Made by a program: the position numbers and the translations under genes. This document shows positions 1,824-37,100 of a DNA stretch of 37,100 nt, piece after piece. Every line of letters starts with the position of its first letter. Position 1 is the stretch's first letter. The notes under the pieces were generated by a model. It saw nothing but the letters and a program-made list of their open reading frames with translations. It was not told where the DNA came from and did not search any database. Source of the stretch: an uncultured Treponema sp. (lineage in GTDB: Bacteria > Spirochaetota > Spirochaetia > Treponematales > Treponemataceae); NCBI GenBank assembly GCA_946532115.1, contig CAMNBC010000009.1, positions 1 through 37,100 on the forward strand. The letters are read 5' to 3'.

Positions 1824-1880
1824 ATTAATGCTTAATGCATAATTCTTAATTCATATTTAATTACGCATTAAGCATTCTCT
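1824..1880. repeat. AT-rich flank repeat, right of the Rpn gene
   Basis: Contains TAATGCTTAAT (1826-1836) and its inverted partner ATTAAGCATT (1867-1876), so it can fold as a hairpin after the Rpn stop codon. ATTTAATTACGCATTAAGCATT (1855-1876) is also a direct-repeat match to 861-882. It overlaps the 3' end of the neighbouring tail gene by a few bases and may act as a terminator as well as a mobility footprint. Confidence 0.5.
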
Positions 1881-3387
1881 AAACCCTTGTTACCCAAATC
1901 TCCGAACTAAACGCAGCTTCCTTCTTATAACGAAACGTGAGTTCATCAATTCTCACTTTCTTAAAATTTGATTGAGCGTTGAGCCTAATATCCATAAAGG
2001 CACCAACGCGGGCATGAATAAGAGGAAGATAAGTTGTTAGGTAGTAAGCACCTTTGCAGTTAATACATTCCTGCAATAAATCTTTTGCACGTCGCAGGCA
2101 GAAAGGTTCATCTTCAAATAAATCATCAGACAAAAACTTTGAAGTCACATTTTTGACAATCTGACTTTTGGCCGCAATCTCGTTATCATCTTTTACAAAA
2201 ATGCTATAGTTAGTTTCAGAAATAATCGCACGGCCATAAATCGCAGCCTTATAAAGTCCAATCAGATTTCCATTTCTCGAAAGCTGGATGATGGCCCTGT
2301 CTTTGTAAGTTGTCGTATCGTACTGTACGACTTCGAACGAAGGTGTCATCGTCGGGCTTGACCCGGCGATCTGCATATCACGAAGAAATTCTTCCTCAGT
2401 AGTCAGCTGGTCCGCAAACACAACGTTCCTAGTTTTTCCTTCCTCATTTTTAGCCGTATAAATAGCCTCGTAATCATTATCAGAAATAATCTTTCTGCTA
2501 TCATCCGTAAATGGATAATAAGGCTTCATGTCCTCGTCATACCACACAGGAGCATCAGAATAAGACCAGAGCTCCTGGCGTTCAGTCTGCACATAACGTG
2601 TATACTTCAGGCGAATATTGTTTGCATACTTATCATTGTTATTAAAAAATCTGTAATGAGTAATCTGAGTTTCATCCAATGTAAAATCACTTTCTTCAGA
2701 ATATTCATTTTCAACATCATAAGGACTTTCAATAAAAGAAAGAGTCAGATCCTTACCGCATTCAACAACAGCGTCATAGGCCTTTGCAAGTGCGCAAAGT
2801 TCTTTCCAAGCAGAACCTGCAACAACAACATAAGGAATATCAAATCGCAGAGTGCCGCAGTTAATTTCATTTGCATTCAGTCCGCCACGTTTTGCAATAA
2901 TATGAACAAGAGAGTTTTCAGGATTCGTTCTGTCACAAACAACAGAGTGAACAACAGTCTGCGCATCAGTCCAGTTATGCTGCAGCTTTGTATCATCAAG
3001 CTTAGAGCTCAAATCAATTAAGCGTACCTTGGTAGTCTTATCAAGAAAGCCTGTCTCCTGGCTTTGGAATCCGTTATCATCTACAAAAAGGTGAAAGCGG
3101 AAAAAAGTGTTTTCACGTTCTCCAAAGCAATACCAAATCTGAACACCAAGCCCTGTTGTATATTCCGCATTATGCTCAGCATCATAAAGACCTTTAAGCA
3201 AAAGCTCTCCGCAGTTTACAATTCCACCAGCCTCTGTGTTGTAAGAAGTTGCAACGCATTCAAGAATATCAGAATCTGGAATATAAACATCACCATTGGC
3301 AAGCTCAAACACAACTCTTACAAATGGGCGGCTGTTAGTTTCGCGGATTCGATTTTCTACTTCTGGTGGTAACTCATAGAACTTCAT
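1879..3387 (-). CDS. Phage tail hub/baseplate-like protein
   Basis: 502 residues, soluble, no signal peptide. It opens with ETNSRPFVRVVFELANGDVY and ends in a beta-rich region (ARVGAFMDIRLNA..., VRIDELTFRYKKEA), a layout seen in phage tail proteins that build the hub or baseplate below the tube. I do not recognise a specific family, and the call also rests on its position between a tail-tube-like gene and the lysis genes. The start ATG at 3387 has no ribosome site. A -10-like TACACT lies only 7 nt upstream (3400-3395), so the mRNA may be leaderless. No tape-measure gene, expected between tube and hub, is present. Confidence 0.5.
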   Translation of the reverse strand: MKFYELPPEVENRIRETNSRPFVRVVFELANGDVYIPDSDILECVATSYNTEAGGIVNCGELLLKGLYDAEHNAEYTTGLGVQIWYCFGERENTFFRFHLFVDDNGFQSQETGFLDKTTKVRLIDLSSKLDDTKLQHNWTDAQTVVHSVVCDRTNPENSLVHIIAKRGGLNANEINCGTLRFDIPYVVVAGSAWKELCALAKAYDAVVECGKDLTLSFIESPYDVENEYSEESDFTLDETQITHYRFFNNNDKYANNIRLKYTRYVQTERQELWSYSDAPVWYDEDMKPYYPFTDDSRKIISDNDYEAIYTAKNEEGKTRNVVFADQLTTEEEFLRDMQIAGSSPTMTPSFEVVQYDTTTYKDRAIIQLSRNGNLIGLYKAAIYGRAIISETNYSIFVKDDNEIAAKSQIVKNVTSKFLSDDLFEDEPFCLRRAKDLLQECINCKGAYYLTTYLPLIHARVGAFMDIRLNAQSNFKKVRIDELTFRYKKEAAFSSEIWVTRV

Positions 3388-3670: not shown

Positions 3671-4633
3671 TTATAAGACTATTTGATAAAAATCTTTTTC
3701 ATTACGTATATTAAAAACTACATTACTTTTTACTCTAAAGCTTTGTGATGCAAGTACGGTATCTGCACAGTTAATGTCTACCAGTTCACCTGCAGCTTCC
3801 AGGTCATACAGGTCTAGCCAGATGCCGTCTTTTATGTCGATTGGGATTGTAAGTTTTTGAATTGAATTTTTTGATGGGAAGAATTCTGTTGAGAGGGGAT
3901 AGTATAAGGTGAGTTTATATTTTGATGTTTCCGTATATGTTCCGGTAAGTTCGAATCTATAAATTAAGGGTATTGTTTTGTTATTGTTTATGGAAATCAG
4001 GTGGCCGTCATAATGGTAAGTGCGGTGGTTGAGCCTGTCGAAACCACCGGACATAGAGCCTGTCATTGCGAGGGCGGAGCCCGAAGCAATCCATCCGTTT
4101 GTCATTCCCCGGCTTGACCTGCCTAAAATCGAAGAGCCGTTAACAAAAAATGCATCGCATTTTTTAGGCTCTTCCACCGTTCTGGCTCGGAACAACTGGT
4201 TGTTCCGGGGAATCTCTAAAGACGGTGTATTTATCGGCCAGTCCTTTGTGTAAGAGTTTTCTGTACTCTCTACATCTACGCGCAGCTTAAATGCTTCACC
4301 GTTTTCTGCACGTAGTTCAAAGTTTTTTACTTTTATATTTTTATAGATTATCTTTTCAAAGATTCTGTCTGCATATAGGTCAAAGCTTTCAATGTCGTTT
4401 TTAAAAAGCAAAAGGAACAGAGCAAGTATGCAGCTGTAATCCAGGCGGGTAACGAAGCAGCCTTCTATTACCTGTCTGGTAGCTACAAACTTTTCTCTGT
4501 TCCTTTTACCGATAACCGCTGGCAGAAAATAGCCTTTGGACCTTTGTCTTACAGTTTCCTCGCTGTAGGGTAATGGATAATATTCATCGTCTTTTGCTAG
4601 TGTCAGTGTGCAGTCTCTGCCTTGGATTTTCAT
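3671..4633 (-). CDS. Phage tail-tube-like protein with in-frame palindromic insertion
   Basis: 320 residues. The N-terminal part (MKIQGRDCTLTL..., VIEGCFVTRLDYSCILALFLLLF near 55-77) and the beta-rich C-terminal part (YRFELTGTYTE..., KLTLYYPL) resemble tail tube proteins, but the family assignment is tentative. Residues 139-204 are foreign: they are encoded by stacked palindromic repeats (4022-4219) read in frame, giving Gly/Ser/Arg-rich sequence such as GSALAMTGSMSGGFDRLNHR. Without them the protein would be about 254 residues. The ATG at 4633 has no ribosome site but a perfect TATAAT 6 nt upstream (4645-4640), again implying a leaderless message. Whether the protein still assembles with the insertion is unknown. 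Confidence 0.5.
   Translation of the reverse strand: MKIQGRDCTLTLAKDDEYYPLPYSEETVRQRSKGYFLPAVIGKRNREKFVATRQVIEGCFVTRLDYSCILALFLLLFKNDIESFDLYADRIFEKIIYKNIKVKNFELRAENGEAFKLRVDVESTENSYTKDWPINTPSLEIPRNNQLFRARTVEEPKKCDAFFVNGSSILGRSSRGMTNGWIASGSALAMTGSMSGGFDRLNHRTYHYDGHLISINNNKTIPLIYRFELTGTYTETSKYKLTLYYPLSTEFFPSKNSIQKLTIPIDIKDGIWLDLYDLEAAGELVDINCADTVLASQSFRVKSNVVFNIRNEKDFYQIVL
4022..4219. repeat. In-frame composite palindromic repeat inside a coding gene
   Basis: Three palindromes lie end to end: a REP-like copy (GAGCCTGTCGAAACCAC, about 4023-4048), a GTCATTGCGAGGGCGGAGCC type element (4063-4092), and a larger one with outer arms CATTCCCCGG (4104-4113) and CCGGGGAAT (4205-4213) that encloses a second hairpin around AAAATGCATCGCATTTT. 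The total is 198 bp, a multiple of three, and the reading frame of the host gene stays open throughout. The layout recalls Rickettsia palindromic elements. Confidence 0.75.
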
Positions 4634-27821: not shown

Positions 27822-29129
27822 TTAGGTATTTGCTGTCTTCAGTATCACGATATTTGCATTTGCACGGGTTACTAAAAATCCATCGCGTTTACGGAATCTC
27901 AAAAAGAGTTCTCCGTATTCCAGGGATTCTGTTGTTTCGTCGAATCTCTTGATTTCAATTCCCTTGCGGTTTCCGTGGAGAATCTTTTTTGGATTCATAA
28001 AGATTGCTATAGGGCTGTTGGCTTCTATGTCTGCAAACTGTGGCAGGATGCTTGATTCTACTACTTCGTAGCCGTCTATCTTTCCAGGCATATTGTCACC
28101 TGGCTTTCGCCAGATCGGGTTTCCGTTGTCGTCTTTAATGTTTACTACGTGGTTTAATACAGTTTCGTTCATAAACCACTTGCATTCAATGCGTTCTTCC
28201 TTGGCAATTTTGAGTTCTGCGTCACGGAAGTCGGTCCAGGTAAGCTTTGCTACATCTGCATCTTTTATTGCGTGTGTTTTTACTTTTGAGGCATTTAATG
28301 CTCCGGTAAATGGTGCATTGTTGGCTATGAGGCACTGTTTGTCAAACTCCTGGCCGTAGGCTTCTGTCATATCTTCTATGAACATCTTTCCAAGGTCTAC
28401 GTAGACATCTTCTTCAAACTCATCAAACCATGGAATAAAGCCTGCAAGGGTGTAGGCTTTGAGTTCTGTTCTTGTTGGTGTATTTGGCTTTGTAGCTTCA
28501 ATCTTCTGGCCGTAGCTTGTAAGCCACTTGAGTTCTACGCCGCCGCGGTCGCGTTCGGGAATAAAGATGCTGGCATTTTTCATTGGGCGGTTTGTAACGA
28601 GGTTCATCATTACAGACTTCTTTGCCGCTTCCTGCATGATTGTCTCTTCATAAATCGGGTTAATCAGGTACTGGTCATTTGTTGTAAGGTTTCCAATCGG
28701 CTCTCCAAGAGCAGCTTTGGATGGTACAAAGCCTTTTTCTGGTACCCAGTTAAAGTCTTTGGGGTTGTTCCATTTTTCTGAGCGTACGTTAGGGCAGAAC
28801 TTTAATTCTGCAAGAGTTTTCTCGTCACGGTTCCAGGCCGCAACCATTGCTTTACCCATCTGGTAGTAAAGGTCTCGCATGCTAAGCGGCTCAATAATTG
28901 TGTCATTCTTTTTAAGCAATCCGCGAAGCTCTTTTACTGTCTGCTTTACGCCTTCAAGCTCTGTAGTAAGGGCATCTTCCTGGTCGCAGGCTGCCTTCAA
29001 AATACCTTCAATAACTTCCTCAGTGTCATTAAAGTACTTTTTAATCTGTTCCGGAGAAGCAGCTTCTGTCGGTACTAAAGCCTTCATCTCCCCAAGTTTC
29101 TTCTGTAATCCTAAAATTACTTCATTCAA
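27822..29129 (-). CDS. HK97-type major capsid protein
   Basis: About 435 residues. N-terminal coiled coil (scaffold-like delta domain, residues 1-90), then the HK97 fold: NLTTNDQYLINPIYEETI, FIPERDRGG, AYTLAGFIPWFDEFEED, EFDKQCLIANN, and the C-terminal IFMNPKKILHGNRKG and ESLEYGELFLRFRKRDG. Start chosen at TTG 29129 because CAGGAGG lies 8 nt upstream. A frame back to ATG 29189 would read through the REP-like palindrome (TWFRQAQPP is the translated repeat), so that extension is unlikely. Expressed from phage promoter site 3 with about 120 nt of leader that carries two palindromes. Confidence 0.9.
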   Translation of the reverse strand: MNEVILGLQKKLGEMKALVPTEAASPEQIKKYFNDTEEVIEGILKAACDQEDALTTELEGVKQTVKELRGLLKKNDTIIEPLSMRDLYYQMGKAMVAAWNRDEKTLAELKFCPNVRSEKWNNPKDFNWVPEKGFVPSKAALGEPIGNLTTNDQYLINPIYEETIMQEAAKKSVMMNLVTNRPMKNASIFIPERDRGGVELKWLTSYGQKIEATKPNTPTRTELKAYTLAGFIPWFDEFEEDVYVDLGKMFIEDMTEAYGQEFDKQCLIANNAPFTGALNASKVKTHAIKDADVAKLTWTDFRDAELKIAKEERIECKWFMNETVLNHVVNIKDDNGNPIWRKPGDNMPGKIDGYEVVESSILPQFADIEANSPIAIFMNPKKILHGNRKGIEIKRFDETTESLEYGELFLRFRKRDGFLVTRANANIVILKTANT

Positions 29130-29151
29130 TTTGTAATCCTCCTGTGTAATT

Positions 29152-29175
29152 GGTGGTTGAGCCTGTCGAAACCAC
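29152..29175. repeat. REP-like palindromic repeat, copy 3
   Basis: GGTGGTTGAGCCTGTCGAAA-type copy in the leader of the capsid mRNA; same core as those at 217 and 4023. Confidence 0.7.
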
Positions 29176-29209
29176 GTTTTATTTTTCACTGCAATTCCAA
29201 CACACTATC

Positions 29210-29330: not shown

Positions 29331-29368
29331 GAATAAAAAAAGGCGGCAATTAAATGCCGCCCGTTATA
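29331..29368 (-). terminator. Terminator of the toxN operon (second copy of the antitoxin terminator)
   Basis: GGCGGCA / TGCCGCC stem with a T run, preceded by TATAACG. It matches the antitoxin terminator at 30109-30142 almost base for base including the flanking TATAAC, so the toxN-small gene pair is bracketed by two copies. Confidence 0.75.
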
Positions 29369-29374
29369 TAGTTT

Positions 29375-29602
29375 TTATCGAATAGCAAACTGCTTTAATT
29401 CAGAATCAGACATAAGTGTAATATTTTTATTATTTGCTTTTGCATATTTTGCAAGGGAACGCAAATCAATTCCTAAACCAGGTTTAGTTGAGTATGGATT
29501 TACGGTTTTAATAAATTCTTGTGCCATTTTATCTTTTTCAGCACTTTCATTTACATTAAAGTTCTTCAATTGTTCTAACATATTACTTTTTTTTGTATTC
29601 AT
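29375..29602 (-). CDS. Small protein co-transcribed with toxN
   Basis: 75 residues from ATG 29602 (MNTKKSNMLEQL); this start overlaps the toxN stop by 20 nt, and ATG 29581 just after the toxN stop is an alternative. Hydrophilic; visible motif-like stretch KPGLGIDLRSLAKYAK. No family recognised. A conserved third gene is not a standard part of type III systems, so it may be an accessory or an unrelated passenger. Ends at its own terminator. Confidence 0.6.
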   Translation of the reverse strand: MNTKKSNMLEQLKNFNVNESAEKDKMAQEFIKTVNPYSTKPGLGIDLRSLAKYAKANNKNITLMSDSELKQFAIR

Positions 29603-30098
29603 CGCACATCTTTTCAAGATTTACGAAATCAAGAGTTATTTCCATCAGTTTGTTTTTATTTTGTTCTGGTTTATAGGTTGTTCGCATTTTATGAAGACGA
29701 ACTGCAGTTTTCTCTATTCTGTCTCTGTTTGCATTAATAAAGAAGTATTCACTCTGCATAAGAATCTTGTACTTAAAATCACCCTCATCATTAACAGTAA
29801 CTTCTTCAAGCTCAGATGCAGGAACAGGAATCATATAATTAAAGCGTATTGTTCCGTAAAGAACATTCTTGCTGCGCATGTATATCTTAATAAGGCTATC
29901 CTTCTTTATATCTCCATTTGGAAGATAGTCAACATCTTTTGGAGAGGACATAGGCACAAAGTACTTGTGTCCATGTAATTCAGTAACAAGGCCTATATAC
30001 TTTCTGTGATAAGTTCTTGTTTCCTGCTTATTAGACATTACATGAGGATTCTCTTTACTCAAATAATCAATATATTCATCTGTAATTGTATAAAACAT
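29583..30098 (-). CDS. toxN: Type III toxin-antitoxin toxin, ToxN/AbiQ-like endoribonuclease
   Basis: 171 residues, the length of classic ToxN. Family landmarks: FYTITDEYIDYL at the N-terminus, KYIGLVTELHGHKYFVPMSS followed by PK (the core strand and S-x-P-K active-site region), and YGTIRFNYMIPVP. ToxN cuts cellular and phage RNA and is held inactive by small antitoxin RNAs made from repeats upstream. Exactly such repeats, with promoter and terminator, lie at 30143-30256. Ribosome site GAGAG precedes ATG 30098, directly after the antitoxin terminator, so toxin would come from read-through. Located between prohead protease and capsid genes, inside the phage head module. Likely role: abortive defence against other phages, or prophage maintenance. 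Confidence 0.88.
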   Translation of the reverse strand: MFYTITDEYIDYLSKENPHVMSNKQETRTYHRKYIGLVTELHGHKYFVPMSSPKDVDYLPNGDIKKDSLIKIYMRSKNVLYGTIRFNYMIPVPASELEEVTVNDEGDFKYKILMQSEYFFINANRDRIEKTAVRLHKMRTTYKPEQNKNKLMEITLDFVNLEKMCDEYKKK

Positions 30099-30108
30099 AT
30101 TATTCTCT

Positions 30109-30142
30109 CAAAAAAAATAAGGCGGCAATTGAATGCCGCCCG
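30109..30142 (-). terminator. Leaky terminator between antitoxin RNA and toxN
   Basis: GGGCGGCA / TGCCGCC hairpin followed by TTATTTTTTTT on the minus strand, ending a few bases before the toxN ribosome site. This is the standard layout for keeping antitoxin RNA in excess over toxin mRNA. Confidence 0.85.
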
Positions 30143-30256
30143 TTATATCCTTCACTTTAAAGGCGGAAGTGCGCCTAGGATTATATCCTTCATTTTAAAG
30201 GTAGAAGTGCACCTAGAATTATATCTTCCACTTCAAGGGCAGGAACGCTCCCAACT
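30143..30256 (-). ncRNA. toxI: ToxI-like antitoxin RNA, three 38-nt tandem repeats
   Basis: Three exact 38-nt units (30256-30219, 30218-30181, 30180-30143 in transcript order). In each RNA unit positions 5-8 can pair with 17-20. The pairs change together: position 5-20 is A-U in two units and G-C in the first; position 8-17 is U-A in one and C-G in another. This supports a conserved pseudoknot stem. Units two and three resemble the ToxI pattern (AGGTG..., CTACCTTTAA). Each unit ends GAUAUAA, a likely ToxN cutting region. Confidence 0.85.
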
Positions 30257-30262
30257 ACCTAT

Positions 30263-30291
30263 AATATAAGTGATAAATACCTGGAAGTCAA
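30263..30291 (-). promoter_or_regulatory. Promoter of the toxI-toxN locus
   Basis: Minus strand TTGACT (30291-30286), 17-nt spacer, TATATT (30268-30263). The start point, 6-7 nt on, falls at the beginning of the first antitoxin repeat. Confidence 0.8.
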
Positions 30292-30297
30292 GCAATA

Positions 30298-30975
30298 TCA
30301 CTGCTGAGCAAGCCCCATCCGTAATCGACTAAAGAATGATATTCCTCCCTCATCCTGAGCAGGCAATGCATTCTCGCTCTTTTCCCCGGCTCTCGCAAAC
30401 GGATTGGCCGGTACACAACAGATAGAAAATTCCAGAAGCTCCTGCTTTCTGTAAATCAAGTCACAATCCTTGTCTTTAGAATCCAGGAATTCAACTTCTT
30501 CTACAGCAAAGCCAACAGACCCGCAGCGAAGACTGCCGTTCTTTACCCGCTGCCCGATGCTCCAGCCAAACTCATCGTAGTCTCTGTTGTTAAAAAACAC
30601 ATCACCTTCAAGCACACTCTCGGCCTTTACATTTTCTGCATATCCAATTGCCGGAACATAATAGTCATGGCTCCAGAGTATCACAGGGTTTTGAATGTAC
30701 TTATCAAGCTTCCAGCCGCTTGGATCAATCCGCTCAAAGTCCCGGTCCGTGTCAAAGGTACTCATAATCCAGTGAATACCTTTGTTTTCATTACAGTTGT
30801 AATTCTTGCCCTTACCACTTTCTGCCACCTGCGGTTTTTGGAACATTGCACTCTTAAAAAGCTCAACGTGAGCATCAAGTCTGCCAGAATGTGTGTTTTC
30901 CTTTAAGAACTTACAAAAGCGGTTGCGGTCCGCTCCCAGTTCCTTATTCAGAACACCATCAACCTTTACAATCAA
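30298..30975 (-). CDS. HK97-family prohead protease
   Basis: 225 residues. Contains ILWSHDYYVPAIGYAENV (catalytic His), SLRCGSVGF (catalytic Ser region) and ELLEFSICCVPANPFARAG, the signature of caudovirus prohead maturation proteases. Start is TTG at 30975 with AGGAGG 5 nt upstream. One base follows the LuxR-type gene stop. The antitoxin promoter begins directly at its stop codon. Confidence 0.88.
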   Translation of the reverse strand: MIVKVDGVLNKELGADRNRFCKFLKENTHSGRLDAHVELFKSAMFQKPQVAESGKGKNYNCNENKGIHWIMSTFDTDRDFERIDPSGWKLDKYIQNPVILWSHDYYVPAIGYAENVKAESVLEGDVFFNNRDYDEFGWSIGQRVKNGSLRCGSVGFAVEEVEFLDSKDKDCDLIYRKQELLEFSICCVPANPFARAGEKSENALPAQDEGGISFFSRLRMGLAQQ

Positions 30976-31662: not shown

Positions 31663-32844
31663 CTAATTCTCCGATACAAGAGAAGCATTGCGGAACCAGG
31701 TATTCCCCCAAGGCTTTTCCTTTTCACCCCGTGCCCTTAGCACGTCATTAATCGTTTTTAATCCCGCATTTATCTCTGCTATATCCCTGTTGCTCTGAGC
31801 ATCCTCGCTCTCCTGCAATTCAGGAATGGCTTGTAAATTGAAAATGCCTTTTTCCTCCAGACCAAAACGGTTAAAAAACTGCACTTCCAACACCTGCTCA
31901 TAGTTCCTTAAGAGCGGTATAAGAGTGAAGTTCCAGAAAGCACGGTGCTGCGAATCAGTATCAGTACCGCTCAAAGAACTTTTTGAATCCTGTATATTAG
32001 CCACCCGTGGCGGAATCCCGTATTTAGCAAGCAGGGTATACAAGTTCCATTTCTTCATATCGTAGAGCTTAAGGACATCCGGACTAAACGTAAGAGGCTG
32101 GTACTCAGTACCACGACCCAAAACTGCTACACGATTTTTCATTCCTTTTCCGTACTTTTTGTCCCAGGTACGTGCAAGTAATTCTGCTTCAGCTTCAGTC
32201 AAAACCTGGTCTGTTTTCAAAAGTCCCTTAGGCACACCCCCTTCCTTCAAAAGCCCCGTATTCTGCCTGGACGCAAGTAAATCCTGTTCCACCTCAAGAC
32301 CAAGACTCACCAAAGGGCTTACACCCCTGTGCTCATTCCAGGGGTTCCAGTCCTTAAAATGAATTATTTCATCTGGAAGAATCACACAAGGCTTACCGTT
32401 TTCACTGTCCGTATAAACCCACTTAACAACTCTTCCGTTTTCTACTACATGCTGAATATGACGCGGAGAAAGCACCTTAAACTCACAAGGCACCCCGCAG
32501 GTATAAGATTCTCCAAACCACCAGAAGGCTTCGCCCTCTAAACTCCACCAGGCACAAGTCTGCTTCCATAAATCAAAACGGCTCATAGTAGCGCTCGGGT
32601 ATCTGAAAAGCCTTGCAACCTTACCATCAGAAATACACTTGCCATCTTTACGAATTTCAAATTCCGCCCTGGCAACATTACGAGTCAAAATATCAATACA
32701 AACCGAAACCCATGCATGCTGCATATAAGGGTCAGAACAAACAGTTTTTTCAACATCACCAAAATCCTCAGTCACAGATTCATTATTAATCTGTTCAAAA
32801 GAGCGAAGCTTCTTCTGTCTACGATGTCTACTAAACAACCCCAT
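31663..32844 (-). CDS. Phage portal protein (HK97 type)
   Basis: 393 residues. Begins with a basic stretch, then DPYMQHAWVSVCIDILTRNV, EGEAFWWF, LPDEIIHFKDWNPWNEHRGVSPL and the central QNTGLLKEGGVPKGLL, all typical of HK97-like portals. Forms the dodecameric ring through which DNA enters. ATG 32844 has AGGAG further upstream (about 13 nt). Confidence 0.93.
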   Translation of the reverse strand: MGLFSRHRRQKKLRSFEQINNESVTEDFGDVEKTVCSDPYMQHAWVSVCIDILTRNVARAEFEIRKDGKCISDGKVARLFRYPSATMSRFDLWKQTCAWWSLEGEAFWWFGESYTCGVPCEFKVLSPRHIQHVVENGRVVKWVYTDSENGKPCVILPDEIIHFKDWNPWNEHRGVSPLVSLGLEVEQDLLASRQNTGLLKEGGVPKGLLKTDQVLTEAEAELLARTWDKKYGKGMKNRVAVLGRGTEYQPLTFSPDVLKLYDMKKWNLYTLLAKYGIPPRVANIQDSKSSLSGTDTDSQHRAFWNFTLIPLLRNYEQVLEVQFFNRFGLEEKGIFNLQAIPELQESEDAQSNRDIAEINAGLKTINDVLRARGEKEKPWGNTWFRNASLVSEN

Positions 32845-32881
32845 ATAAATTATCGGTCTCCTAACAAAGTGTTATTGCATA

Positions 32882-34093
32882 TCATCCCATCACAACGCCA
32901 CCAGTCGCAGCACTAAAAATCGCATACCGCATGGCATCCATGTAATGATCATTCACTTTCACAATCTGATTATTCTCATCCCGCGAATAATCCCATATCT
33001 CCCCAAGCACCCCAGTACAGTCCTTACAAACAAAAAACTGGCCGCGTTCAATCTTCGCAATAATAAAATCAATTCCCGCATCCACACTGTTATTTGCTTT
33101 CACACCGCTTGGAATCTCCTGAATTCTCTCTCCGCCAGCCGGGTCACAGTAAGTAACAAAACTCTCCCTGTACCAGCCGCAAGCCTCCTGCTTTTCAACA
33201 GAAGTCTTAGTCGTAATATTAAAGCCGCCCGAATCCGCAACCACATAAACAACCTCGCCAACCCAGCCAACCTTAACCGCCGCAATATGAAGCCCAAAAT
33301 CCTGCCCGCCGGTAAACTTGTCAAACTTCTCTGGAAGCTTATCTTTGGGAAGAATCATAGCTTCTTCAAACTTCTCATAAACCGAACCCTCAGGCTTAAC
33401 CCAAAGTCCGTCGCGGAAACGGGCTCTCTGTTTTTCCGGCATGTTATCCAGAATGTCAGAAATATAATCCTCATTCAGGTTCTCAGCATTATCCGCCGGA
33501 TTCAAAACCGCACTCGCATATAAGTCCGGCTTCTGTAATTTTTCATCAGTCCTCGGTTCAAGCTTCCGGATAAAAACCTTATAAGCCCAGTGCATAGGCG
33601 AACACGGGTTACAGTCATAAAAAAACTTGTTCTTACAGCCTTCCACCTTCATAGCAAGACGACTGTAAGCCGTAGTAATGGCAGAGTAGGAAATCTGACT
33701 CACCTCGTTAAAGTAAATAGTCACATACTCATGCCCGAGGATTCGGTCAACCTGTTCCTTATCCCCAAGCCCGCCAATCCAGATCTCGCTGCCGTTCCAC
33801 AAGGTAATCAAACCATCGTGAACATTAGCCTTATAGTTCTTTGCCCCAATCGTCTTATTCAGCCAGGGAAGCAGCGTCTCATGCAGCACAGAACTCCTCG
33901 CATCCTTAGCCCTAAAACGACAGATAAGGTGACGGCTTCCCGGATACCTGCAGGCCCGAAAAATAATCGCCATCACCAGCACCGTAGTCTTCCCAGACCT
34001 TGACCCGCCAAAAAGCAAAATGTGTTTTGCGCTACTTGCCAAAAGCTTTAAAGCCTTTTTTTGCACTTCAGTAGGTTTGAATAATTCACGCAT
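32882..34093 (-). CDS. terL: Terminase large subunit
   Basis: 403 residues. Walker A GGSRSGKTT (about residues 29-37), Walker B VTIYFNEVSQI, the coupling SAITTAYSRL and the nuclease domain with GGQDFGLH, YCDPAGGERIQEI and DHYMDAMRYAIF. Packages DNA into the prohead. Only a weak AGG ribosome site; lies 22 nt after the small subunit. Confidence 0.95.
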   Translation of the reverse strand: MRELFKPTEVQKKALKLLASSAKHILLFGGSRSGKTTVLVMAIIFRACRYPGSRHLICRFRAKDARSSVLHETLLPWLNKTIGAKNYKANVHDGLITLWNGSEIWIGGLGDKEQVDRILGHEYVTIYFNEVSQISYSAITTAYSRLAMKVEGCKNKFFYDCNPCSPMHWAYKVFIRKLEPRTDEKLQKPDLYASAVLNPADNAENLNEDYISDILDNMPEKQRARFRDGLWVKPEGSVYEKFEEAMILPKDKLPEKFDKFTGGQDFGLHIAAVKVGWVGEVVYVVADSGGFNITTKTSVEKQEACGWYRESFVTYCDPAGGERIQEIPSGVKANNSVDAGIDFIIAKIERGQFFVCKDCTGVLGEIWDYSRDENNQIVKVNDHYMDAMRYAIFSAATGGVVMG

Positions 34094-34115
34094 CAGAAAA
34101 CCTAAAACCTAGAAC

Positions 34116-34643
34116 CTACAAATCCTTAAAACTATCCACAAAGCTAATCGCCAGCTCCCCCTGAACCGGCTGCTTCACATTCTCCTTATCCGCCCCCGTA
34201 ATAAAGGAGTCTAGCTTCGCAGACCTCTCAAGCAAATTCATAGCTCCATCCGCATCAAGCTTTTCCGGATCCAGAGTCTTAAGCCGCTTTCCAACCAGCT
34301 CATCAAAACCGTTCAGCATCTCCATCTGCCGTTTCTTACGCTCAACGCGTTCAGCAATCAGCTCCCGTTCAGTCTCCCTGGCCACATATTCATCATAAGC
34401 CGCAGCCCTCTCATTCCAGCGAAAGAGCCTTGCATAACGAGCCCAGGAGCCATACTTTTTAGAATCAATTCCATTCAGTTCAAGACAAGCCTTAATACTC
34501 CTCTTGTACCCCATGGAGCGAAAAAGACAGAAAGCCTTAAAGGCCCTGGCAGACTCATCTGGCAACCGAGTCTCCCAGACCTTCAAGACATCCGTCTTAT
34601 CAAGTTCACTGCTTATAGGTTTCACAGTGCCTTGTTCTCCCAC
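34116..34643 (-). CDS. terS: Terminase small subunit-like DNA-binding protein
   Basis: 175 residues from GTG 34643, which has AGGAGG 8 nt upstream. SYGxW-type middle (YGSWARYARLFRWNERAAAYDE) and a helical C-terminal half are found in small terminases of related prophages. It lies directly before terL, where TerS is expected. Recognises the packaging site. Confidence 0.75.
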   Translation of the reverse strand: MGEQGTVKPISSELDKTDVLKVWETRLPDESARAFKAFCLFRSMGYKRSIKACLELNGIDSKKYGSWARYARLFRWNERAAAYDEYVARETERELIAERVERKKRQMEMLNGFDELVGKRLKTLDPEKLDADGAMNLLERSAKLDSFITGADKENVKQPVQGELAISFVDSFKDL

Positions 34644-35198: not shown

Positions 35199-36770
35199 TT
35201 AAGCCGCAATCAAAACATTCCAGCCCTGACTAAGCACCTCTTTCGCATTATTCAACTTCAACTGAGTTTCATGCTCAGAGTAGAGACGTGTCATCTCCTC
35301 AGTTCTGTGACCAAGAATCTTCATAGCAATTTCAAGACTAGCACGCTGCGCAATCTGAGTAGCACAGTAGTGACGCAAACTGTGGAACACAATATTACGC
35401 TCTTTTCTCTGTTCCTCACTGATTCCAATCTTCTGCATAGCAATATAAAAATCATCATCAAAAGAACTAGGCCACATAGGCTGGTCATAAATCTTATGAG
35501 ACCAGAACACAAAACTCGTGTCAGAATAATTCGGATTCCGTCTCGCATTATTCAAAAGCTCAAGAGCGACACCATGCTCAATCGGAATCGTCCTGTCGTC
35601 ACCATTCTTAGTCTCTTTCAGCTTGTCAGTATCATTCCAGCTATGACGTATATAAAGCAGATCAGCAACAGGGTCCACATCACAAACCTGGAGCCCGCTT
35701 ATTTCCCCCGCACGAAGTCCAAACAAAGCCGACACCTTAAAGGCAAGCTTATAAACAGGATCCGCCCAATCCCAGTCCAAATCCATCAACTGCTTCATTT
35801 CAGTCTCAGTAGGAATACCACGCTTCTTGTGCTGCACACGGAAACGCTCAACACCAAGAAGAGGATTCTTATCCAAAAGCCCCTCTTTAATCAAAAACTC
35901 AAAAGCCATATTCCCAGCCGTCATAGTTTTATTTACAGTATCAGCAGAAAGCCCCTTATCACGACGAAGCGAAAGCAAAAACTCATCCAGCTCCCGGCTA
36001 GTCAAACTCTGCACAGTCCTCTCAGAATCAAAATAAGTCGCCCAGTAACGACGCACAATACCAGTCTTCTCCTTACAGTTTCTCTGCTTAATCTCAAACC
36101 CCCTAAGCTGGCGCCGCTTAATATACTCCGAGTTTTCAAAATCCCAGAACTTAAAAAGATACTCCACAAGCTTCACACCACAAGAAGCTTTCTGCTCAGG
36201 ACAAGACACAAGGTCACAAGAAACATTTTTATCAACAGCCTTCAAGTCCACAGAGCCAGCATCAACAGAACTCTCACAAACAACAGACTTACAATCGTTA
36301 GTTACAACAGGAGCAGCATTTTCACAAGCCTCAGAAATTTCTACAACATCTTCACAATCTTCAGCAGTATCATCATTAGCAGCAGAGGCAACTTCAACAG
36401 ATTCAACACATTCACTTTCGTCAGTCCTAACAAAGTCAGAAGTTGGCTTCAAGGTTTTCACTTCATCAAGCACAAACCCCGAATTCCCAAACCGCTCAAC
36501 AAGAAGCTTCGAAAGCTCCACCGCCTCAGAAGGCGAGAGCCTCTGAACAAGAGAGACAAGGTCCACCCCGGCAGTAACCTCAGAAAAAGTCCGCTCACAA
36601 GACCGCCCCGCAGGAGGCCCATTACGATACCATTCATCCGCAATAAGAGTCGCCTGCTGCCGATTCTTAGTATGCGTACTCTTCGCCTTACCAAGCTTAC
36701 CAGTAACAGGATCCGGAAAGCGAACCCTAAAATAACCATGCTGATTTCTAGAAAGATAGAACGCCTGCAT
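35199..36770 (-). CDS. int: Tyrosine recombinase integrase
   Basis: About 523 residues from ATG 36770 (AGGAGG 4-5 nt upstream; the longer frame to 36860 reads through the GGTACC repeats). Order: N-terminal arm-binding domain (YLSRNQHGYFRVRFPD), a long acidic Cys/Ser/Val-rich linker (about residues 110-220, for example CEDVVEISEACENAAP), a core-binding domain (TVQSLTSRELDEFLLSL) and the catalytic domain with ALFGLRAGEISGL, KNGDDRTIPI, FHSLRHYCA, ILGHR and TRLYSEH giving R, K, H-R, H and Y. It inserts the element at the adjacent tRNA-Lys. The linker is longer than in most phage integrases. Confidence 0.93.
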   Translation of the reverse strand: MQAFYLSRNQHGYFRVRFPDPVTGKLGKAKSTHTKNRQQATLIADEWYRNGPPAGRSCERTFSEVTAGVDLVSLVQRLSPSEAVELSKLLVERFGNSGFVLDEVKTLKPTSDFVRTDESECVESVEVASAANDDTAEDCEDVVEISEACENAAPVVTNDCKSVVCESSVDAGSVDLKAVDKNVSCDLVSCPEQKASCGVKLVEYLFKFWDFENSEYIKRRQLRGFEIKQRNCKEKTGIVRRYWATYFDSERTVQSLTSRELDEFLLSLRRDKGLSADTVNKTMTAGNMAFEFLIKEGLLDKNPLLGVERFRVQHKKRGIPTETEMKQLMDLDWDWADPVYKLAFKVSALFGLRAGEISGLQVCDVDPVADLLYIRHSWNDTDKLKETKNGDDRTIPIEHGVALELLNNARRNPNYSDTSFVFWSHKIYDQPMWPSSFDDDFYIAMQKIGISEEQRKERNIVFHSLRHYCATQIAQRASLEIAMKILGHRTEEMTRLYSEHETQLKLNNAKEVLSQGWNVLIAA

Positions 36771-36814
36771 AAAACCTCCTTCCGCATCGCAAAGCGACGC
36801 AAAAAAACAAAAGG

Positions 36815-36862
36815 TTGGTACCCATCTTGATACCATCTTTGGTACCTCTTTTGGTACCATCG
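36815..36862. repeat. Four 12-bp iterons upstream of integrase
   Basis: TTGGTACC, TTGATACC, TTGGTACC, TTGGTACC, each followed by a 4-nt spacer, in perfect 12-bp steps (36815, 36827, 36839, 36851). Located 45 nt before the integrase start and beside the attachment region. Likely arm-type integrase sites or operators of a phage regulator. Confidence 0.75.
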
Positions 36863-37005: not shown

Positions 37006-37007
37006 AC

Positions 37008-37080
37008 TGAGCTACACTGGATTCGAACCAGTGACCCACGCCTTAAAAGGGCGTTGCTCTACCTACTGAGCTAGTAGCCC
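37008..37080 (-). tRNA. tRNA-Lys (TTT anticodon)
   Basis: 73 nt. Acceptor GGGCTAC / GTAGCTC (one G-T), D arm GCTC...GAGC, anticodon arm ACGCC-CTTTTAA-GGCGT giving anticodon TTT, T arm ACTGG-TTCGAAT-CCAGT, discriminator A. CCA is not encoded. The 3' end faces the integrase, so it is the likely attachment target. Confidence 0.95.
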
Positions 37081-37100
37081 ATCCATTCTTGCGAATGTTT

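Follow-up and report, generated by a model that had tools for sequence, protein, structure and literature searches.

The closest described relatives of the locus reported here include two plasmid-borne systems, AbiQ/antiQ of Lactococcus lactis and ToxIN of the Pectobacterium atrosepticum plasmid pECA1039, together with ToxIN of Bacillus thuringiensis. In the family mechanism, as outlined in two papers (PMC5086642; PMC8860590), toxI is co-transcribed with toxN, a terminator sets the ratio of the two, ToxN processes the repeat array, the resulting units bind ToxN and block it, and phage infection frees the toxin. The active site of the Escherichia coli ToxN is lined by Lys33, Thr52, Ser53 and Lys55, and Lys33 is naturally Arg in two E. 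coli ToxN clusters (PMC8860590). One type III toxin-antitoxin locus in a prophage is already mentioned in a review (PMC5086642). A literature search returned no text joining ToxN, AbiQ and Treponema.

The window analysed here is a stretch of 37,100 nucleotides that makes up one whole contig of a draft assembly (2.45 Mb, 72.7% complete). It was found to contain a complete toxIN locus on the minus strand, in the order promoter, three toxI units, intrinsic terminator and toxN, followed by a small open reading frame:

30263..30291, minus strand: toxIN promoter, predicted, -35 TTGACT, 17 nt, -10 TATATT (sigma-70-like consensus, 10/12)
30219..30256, minus strand: toxI unit 1, 38 nt (3/4 pairs in stem 1, 4/4 in stem 2)
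30181..30218, minus strand: toxI unit 2, 38 nt, full predicted pseudoknot, same sequence in the sister copy G019
30143..30180, minus strand: toxI unit 3, 38 nt, full predicted pseudoknot, same sequence in G019
30120..30141, minus strand: intrinsic terminator at the toxI-toxN junction (GC-rich hairpin and T tract)
29583..30098, minus strand: toxN, predicted 171-aa ToxN/AbiQ-family endoribonuclease (Pfam, PADLOC and PDB sequence matches)
29375..29581, minus strand: orf68, a 68-aa open reading frame that starts one base past the toxN stop
29332..29369, minus strand: second copy of the toxI 3' end and terminator, after orf68 (92% over 38 nt)

The ToxN/AbiQ protein, the pseudoknot repeats and the ToxIN gene order bear out the original prediction of a complete type III toxin-antitoxin locus, and the promoter, the hairpin terminator between repeats and toxin gene, and the 171-residue ToxN/AbiQ-like protein that it had named were each found. 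We hold with high confidence that the locus is a ToxIN/AbiQ-family type III toxin-antitoxin system that a single lineage of phage-like elements, integrated at tRNA genes in rumen Treponema, acquired at the protease-capsid junction of its head operon. The system itself is ordinary, and its address is rare.

The assignment of the toxin was evaluated with three independent libraries, which agreed in placing it in the ToxN/AbiQ protein family. The profile search that the original prediction had proposed, run with hmmscan, matched Pfam ToxN_toxin (PF13958) at 1.4e-34, with 120 bits against a cut-off of 25; PADLOC gave an AbiQ match at 3.4e-37, and a phmmer comparison with solved structures gave 4ATO (1.2e-22) and 2XD0 (4.3e-15), and also 7D8O and the AbiQ structure 4GLK. 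The product also matched a PHROG family of unknown function. Residues R32, S51, S52 and K54 of the window ToxN align with K33, T52, S53 and K55 of the E. coli protein, and these predicted active-site positions differ from it by the natural variant K33 to R and the conservative change T52 to S.

The number of promoter hexamers by itself was not above chance (3 found versus 5.9 in shuffled sequence), and the evidence for the predicted promoter upstream of the array is the conservation of its consensus hexamers between loci: despite divergent spacers, they are TTGACA/TATATT in G019 and TTGACT/TATATT in a chromosomal copy, G025, and are thus kept in three copies. The terminator (30141..30120, minus strand) lies between array and toxin gene, as in ToxIN and AbiQ systems. 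Its core was present twice in the window versus none in shuffled sequence, and in G019 its loop is changed and its stem kept.

The array of toxI units (30256..30143, minus strand) lies just upstream of the toxin gene. It had been described as three exact 38-nt repeats, and this holds for length and spacing, which are exactly 38 nt and slightly above the approximately 34-36 nt of cited members; it does not hold for sequence, because the units are only 100, 87 and 66% identical to the toxN-proximal unit. The units fit a predicted H-type ToxI pseudoknot in which stem 1 pairs unit positions 5-8 with 17-20 and stem 2 pairs positions 12-15 with 28-31, written as S1(4)-N3-S2(4)-N1-S1'-N4..8-S2'. A first model with stem 2 at positions 10-14/24-28 was dropped, as it was broken by unit 2, whereas 12-15/28-31 fits all units. 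In six distinct 38-nt units from three loci, the model positions were paired in 93.8% of cells, and sliding the partner strand by 1-3 columns lowered this value to 46-73%. Four pairs were doubly compensated, namely 5-20 and 8-17 in stem 1 and 12-31 and 14-29 in the second stem. The first two are the covariations that had been noted originally (5-20, A-U to G-C; 8-17, U-A to C-G), and both are real, with 8-17 mismatched in unit 1.

The same topology, which was defined after some of these units and the pECA1039 array had been viewed, had 52 matches within the 260 nt preceding 44 toxN open reading frames, compared to 1.9 in shuffled sequence. It was present at about two dozen Treponema toxN loci besides the window, and the test also recovered the toxI array of pECA1039 from P. 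atrosepticum. Units of 34 nt at loci L008-L010, which lie upstream of toxN, are strongly diverged and were left out of the definition, fit it fully. In 16 diverse units, 127 of 128 cells were paired, versus 93 +/- 3.6 when the 3' strands were reshuffled among rows, and stem 1 alone gave a covariation score of 0.76, versus 0.30 in shuffles (17 units). When each unit was searched for a pseudoknot without constraints, units 1 and 2 gave no significant result (p 0.46 and 0.62), and the significance of the pseudoknot thus comes from the fixed family topology and the covariation. A search of the array with Rfam covariance models gave no ToxI match and only sub-threshold chance matches driven by the terminator, a miss that may be as expected for short diverged pseudoknots. 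We count this miss, and the one stem 1 mismatch in unit 1, against our interpretation of the locus.

The neighbouring genes on which the placement of the locus depends are as follows:

30298..30975, minus strand: prohead protease, the upstream neighbour of toxIN (Pfam Peptidase_S78, 1.1e-4; PHROG head maturation protease, 2.4e-8)
27822..29189, minus strand: major capsid protein, the downstream neighbour (Pfam Phage_capsid, 8.4e-31)
31663..34643, minus strand: genes of this head module for the portal and the large and small terminase
35199..36860, minus strand: tyrosine integrase, adjoining tRNA-Lys(ttt) at 37007-37081, which marks the element's integration end

The position between prohead protease and major capsid genes was thus as originally described. 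Upstream of toxIN are the prohead protease, a variable 244-aa protein, portal, terL, terS, an HTH protein, the integrase and tRNA-Lys(ttt), and downstream are the capsid, a head-tail adaptor and a 131-aa protein. This order, always adjoining a tRNA gene, is repeated in L052, another element of this genome, and in G004, G019, G021, G048, G063 and G077 (two elements); it is common to the eight compared elements, so that the description as a prophage head operon was right in substance, and the locus lies within an integrated phage-like element. An exact 43-bp repeat of the 3' part of tRNA-Phe, its copies 28.6 kb apart, flanks the G004 element; an att site of the window's element was not found in the contig, which ends inside the element. 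The element may be either a full phage or a satellite. The named relatives of the capsid gene come from Treponema of rumen and gut, T. bryantii among them, and from termite-gut and other spirochaetes, which identifies the spirochaete-like genome of the original prediction as that of a rumen Treponema host.

The head module is separated from a second conserved block by about 22 kb (window 4700-26700) of mostly surface-polysaccharide genes, among them EpsG, glycosyltransferases, GDP-mannose dehydratase, FdtA and a DegT aminotransferase. Other copies of the element have different genes in this middle part, such as a type I restriction system in L052, and its length varies from about 1 to 22 kb. 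The second conserved block (window 1879-3387 and 3671-4633; L096 2559-8014) encodes proteins without a Pfam match, a weak podophage-fibre-like protein and a D5-type primase/helicase.

The rarity of the address was quantified among 143 related loci that have both the protease and capsid genes. The gap between the two genes was 874 nt in one of them, L121 (also G019, on a contig of 74,828 bases), and at most 204 nt in the 142 others (median 20), and L121 was the only one with a ToxN match. It carries toxIN at the same junction, with a ToxN 92% identical to that of the window. The location had been called unusual, and it is, with this one other case among the 143 related head operons. Because two independent assemblies carry the locus, an assembly artefact is unlikely. 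The gap was considered as a general cargo hotspot, and this was rejected, given that it exceeds 204 nt at a single one of the 143 loci. By eye, many related elements without toxIN (L025-L042, L052 and L053) show an inverted-repeat-like sequence in the gap, often after an A tract, which is possibly a processing or attenuation signal.

Comparing the window with G019, 17% of toxN bases differ, with dN 0.048, dS about 2 (saturated) and dN/dS 0.024. The nucleotide identity of toxN is 83% versus 80-82% for terL, portal and capsid, a similar divergence that is as expected if toxN travels with the element. Units 2 and 3 of toxI are identical between the two copies and unit 1 differs at three positions, whereas the terminator loop and promoter spacer have drifted. 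Judged from these alignments, purifying selection on toxN together with unchanged units should be the pattern expected of a functional toxin-antitoxin system travelling with the element. The insertion is one old, rare and selectively kept acquisition.

A third copy of the same subfamily (G025, locus L075) shares the promoter hexamers and contains two units, and it lies outside phage genes, beside an EF-G-like gene, with a 5'-truncated toxN that has lost its start and N-terminus. In the toxN tree, the window, G019 and L075 form one clade (100/100), in which the window is nearer to L075 than to G019 (99/87). Together, the G025 copy and the tree indicate that the module moves between phage-like and chromosomal places; the subfamily is not phage-specific, and we count this against our interpretation.

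The open reading frame that follows toxN, orf68, gave nothing significant in Pfam and is absent from the toxIN of G019, and its relatives (58-62%) in G019, G009 and G002 occur in other contexts. There was thus no support for orf68 as a third gene that belongs regularly to the module. It is either a local addition in the window or a loss in G019, and the duplicated terminator suggests that orf68 was captured between two toxI ends. Of the loci L044, L045 and L046, the first two have the orf68 relative behind a protein of about 181 aa that has no Pfam match, close to Rhs-like sequence; the two genes may be a cassette of polymorphic-toxin loci.

ToxN is frequent in Treponema, with matches in 41 of the 148 relatives searched, 40 of them above the cut-off and all in one genus among 33. 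Several of these same-genus matches contain stops or are fragments. At six loci (L005, L006, L012, L015, L016 and L019), a single ToxI pseudoknot unit (AAGGATATCGCGCCTTTAATCGCGAAA...) is flanked by promoter and terminator with no tandem array, and the toxins of these loci form one clade (96/94). A one-unit antitoxin would be unusual, because the review gives minimum repeat numbers of at least 1.8 for antiQ and 2.5 for P. atrosepticum ToxI (PMC5086642). In another toxN group (L020, L060, L062 and L067), one longer RNA (AGAAGGTCTCCATTAACCTGCGGTTTCAATCCGTGAAGAGATGAA...), which has a promoter and a terminator, precedes toxN, and no tandem units were seen upstream of toxN at these four loci.

With the window ToxN as query, matches were found in 3 records of the sequenced phage collection versus 180 plasmids. 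A profile scan of 2.9 million viral contigs gave at least 11 loci, a lower bound because the scan was pattern-limited. In Fusobacterium phage phiFN37 (L084, 8986-9510), ToxN lies beside a Neck1-like/tail-completion gene in the morphogenesis region, apparently as an independent toxIN within phage structural genes, and L253 looks like a relative. A prophage toxIN has already been reported, the prior prophage cases being those known through the review (PMC5086642), and the present locus stands out by its rare address. Details that go beyond the original prediction are orf68, the second copy of the toxI terminator and a possible self-tolerance through read-through of the late operon. With the present locus, a ToxIN that is conserved and maintained by selection joins the known content of spirochaete phage-like elements.

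The homology, active-site residues, RNA architecture and covariation, promoter-terminator layout, shared insertion site and purifying selection were shown here, and by analogy with the family the locus would work as follows. Its own promoter would make a toxI transcript that mostly ends at the terminator, with partial read-through giving toxN mRNA. ToxN would cut the precursor into 38-nt pseudoknots, which would bind back to ToxN and keep it inactive. When a competing phage shuts down or degrades host transcription, the short-lived toxI would drop, and the freed ToxN would cleave mRNA and abort the infection. By the same logic, loss of the element would be penalised.

The module probably protects or keeps the phage-like element. 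Defence against competing phages, which the original prediction had suggested, is plausible from knowledge of the family and from the purifying selection, and maintenance of the element is a close rival, as both fit the data. The narrower proposal that the module is kept mainly for addiction or stabilisation of the element, with no role against other phages, seems to us somewhat unlikely: type III systems stabilise plasmids according to the review (PMC5086642), and the element is integrated, carries cargo and has a module under purifying selection, but chromosomally integrated elements are seldom lost, the best-studied ToxIN members also abort phage infection (PMC5086642; PMC3475682), and the two roles are not exclusive. 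The module might instead have landed by chance in an intergenic gap that tolerates it and be decaying there as a passenger with no current function. This would be in keeping with the truncated G025 copy and with the interrupted or fragmentary toxN matches of the genus, and yet both halves are intact in the window and G019, dN/dS is 0.02 with synonymous sites saturated, and units 2 and 3 have stayed the same while promoter spacer and terminator loop drifted; we regard it as scarcely credible.

Two further proposals concern the head operon itself. An RNA element of the phage operon that resembles toxI might process or attenuate the head transcript, with a ToxN-like protein recruited as its nuclease. 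The inverted-repeat-like sequence seen by eye in the same gap of related elements without toxN, and the two terminators oriented with head transcription, speak for this, but the repeat unit matches the canonical ToxI pseudoknot, a conserved promoter belongs to the module itself, and in G025 the module also occurs away from head genes, which makes the proposal very improbable. Alternatively, a ToxIN at this position might be functional through its location: induction of the element would flood the cell with toxI by late-operon read-through, so that the element would tolerate its own toxin and heterologous phages would not, and the protease and capsid transcripts would also be parted when ToxN cuts the array in the head mRNA. 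The self-tolerance step is known to work in principle, because phage PhiTE escapes ToxIN by making extra toxI-like RNA (PMC3475682); the proposal as a whole we consider unlikely. If true, it would mean that a type III toxin-antitoxin system is coupled to the expression of virion genes and so provides self-immunity. Nature offers a clean comparison between the 2 elements whose head operon contains the module and the 142 others in which it is missing, which could test a late-operon toxin-antitoxin system for phage competition, element retention or tolerance of its own toxin.

Compared with the known systems, the module, which we take to be a ToxIN/AbiQ-family system, shares with ToxIN of pECA1039 (P. 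atrosepticum; PDB 2XD0) the order promoter, repeats, terminator and toxN, the pseudoknot topology S1(4)-N3-S2(4)-N1-S1'-N4..8-S2', the ToxN family and the active-site positions. It differs in having 3 units of 38 nt versus 5.5 of 36 nt, a ToxN of about 29% identity, a location in the head operon of a phage-like element instead of a plasmid, and an extra open reading frame and second terminator. ToxIN of B. thuringiensis (PDB 4ATO) is the best solved structure by sequence (1.2e-22), and its 2.9 units of 34 nt, as listed in the review (PMC5086642), are close in number to the 3 of the window, whereas the window units are 38 nt and the replicon is another. AbiQ/antiQ of L. lactis (PDB 4GLK; PADLOC AbiQ) is alike in protein family (3.4e-37) and is likened by unit number and size, with 2.8 units of 35 nt versus 38 nt in the window (PMC5086642); the abortive-infection role belongs to this named L. 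lactis system. Phage phiFN37 also has a type III toxin-antitoxin system within its morphogenesis region, but not between protease and capsid genes, and its ToxN is 36.5% identical to that of the window. The locus mentioned in the review is like that of the window in being a type III toxin-antitoxin system in a prophage (PMC5086642).
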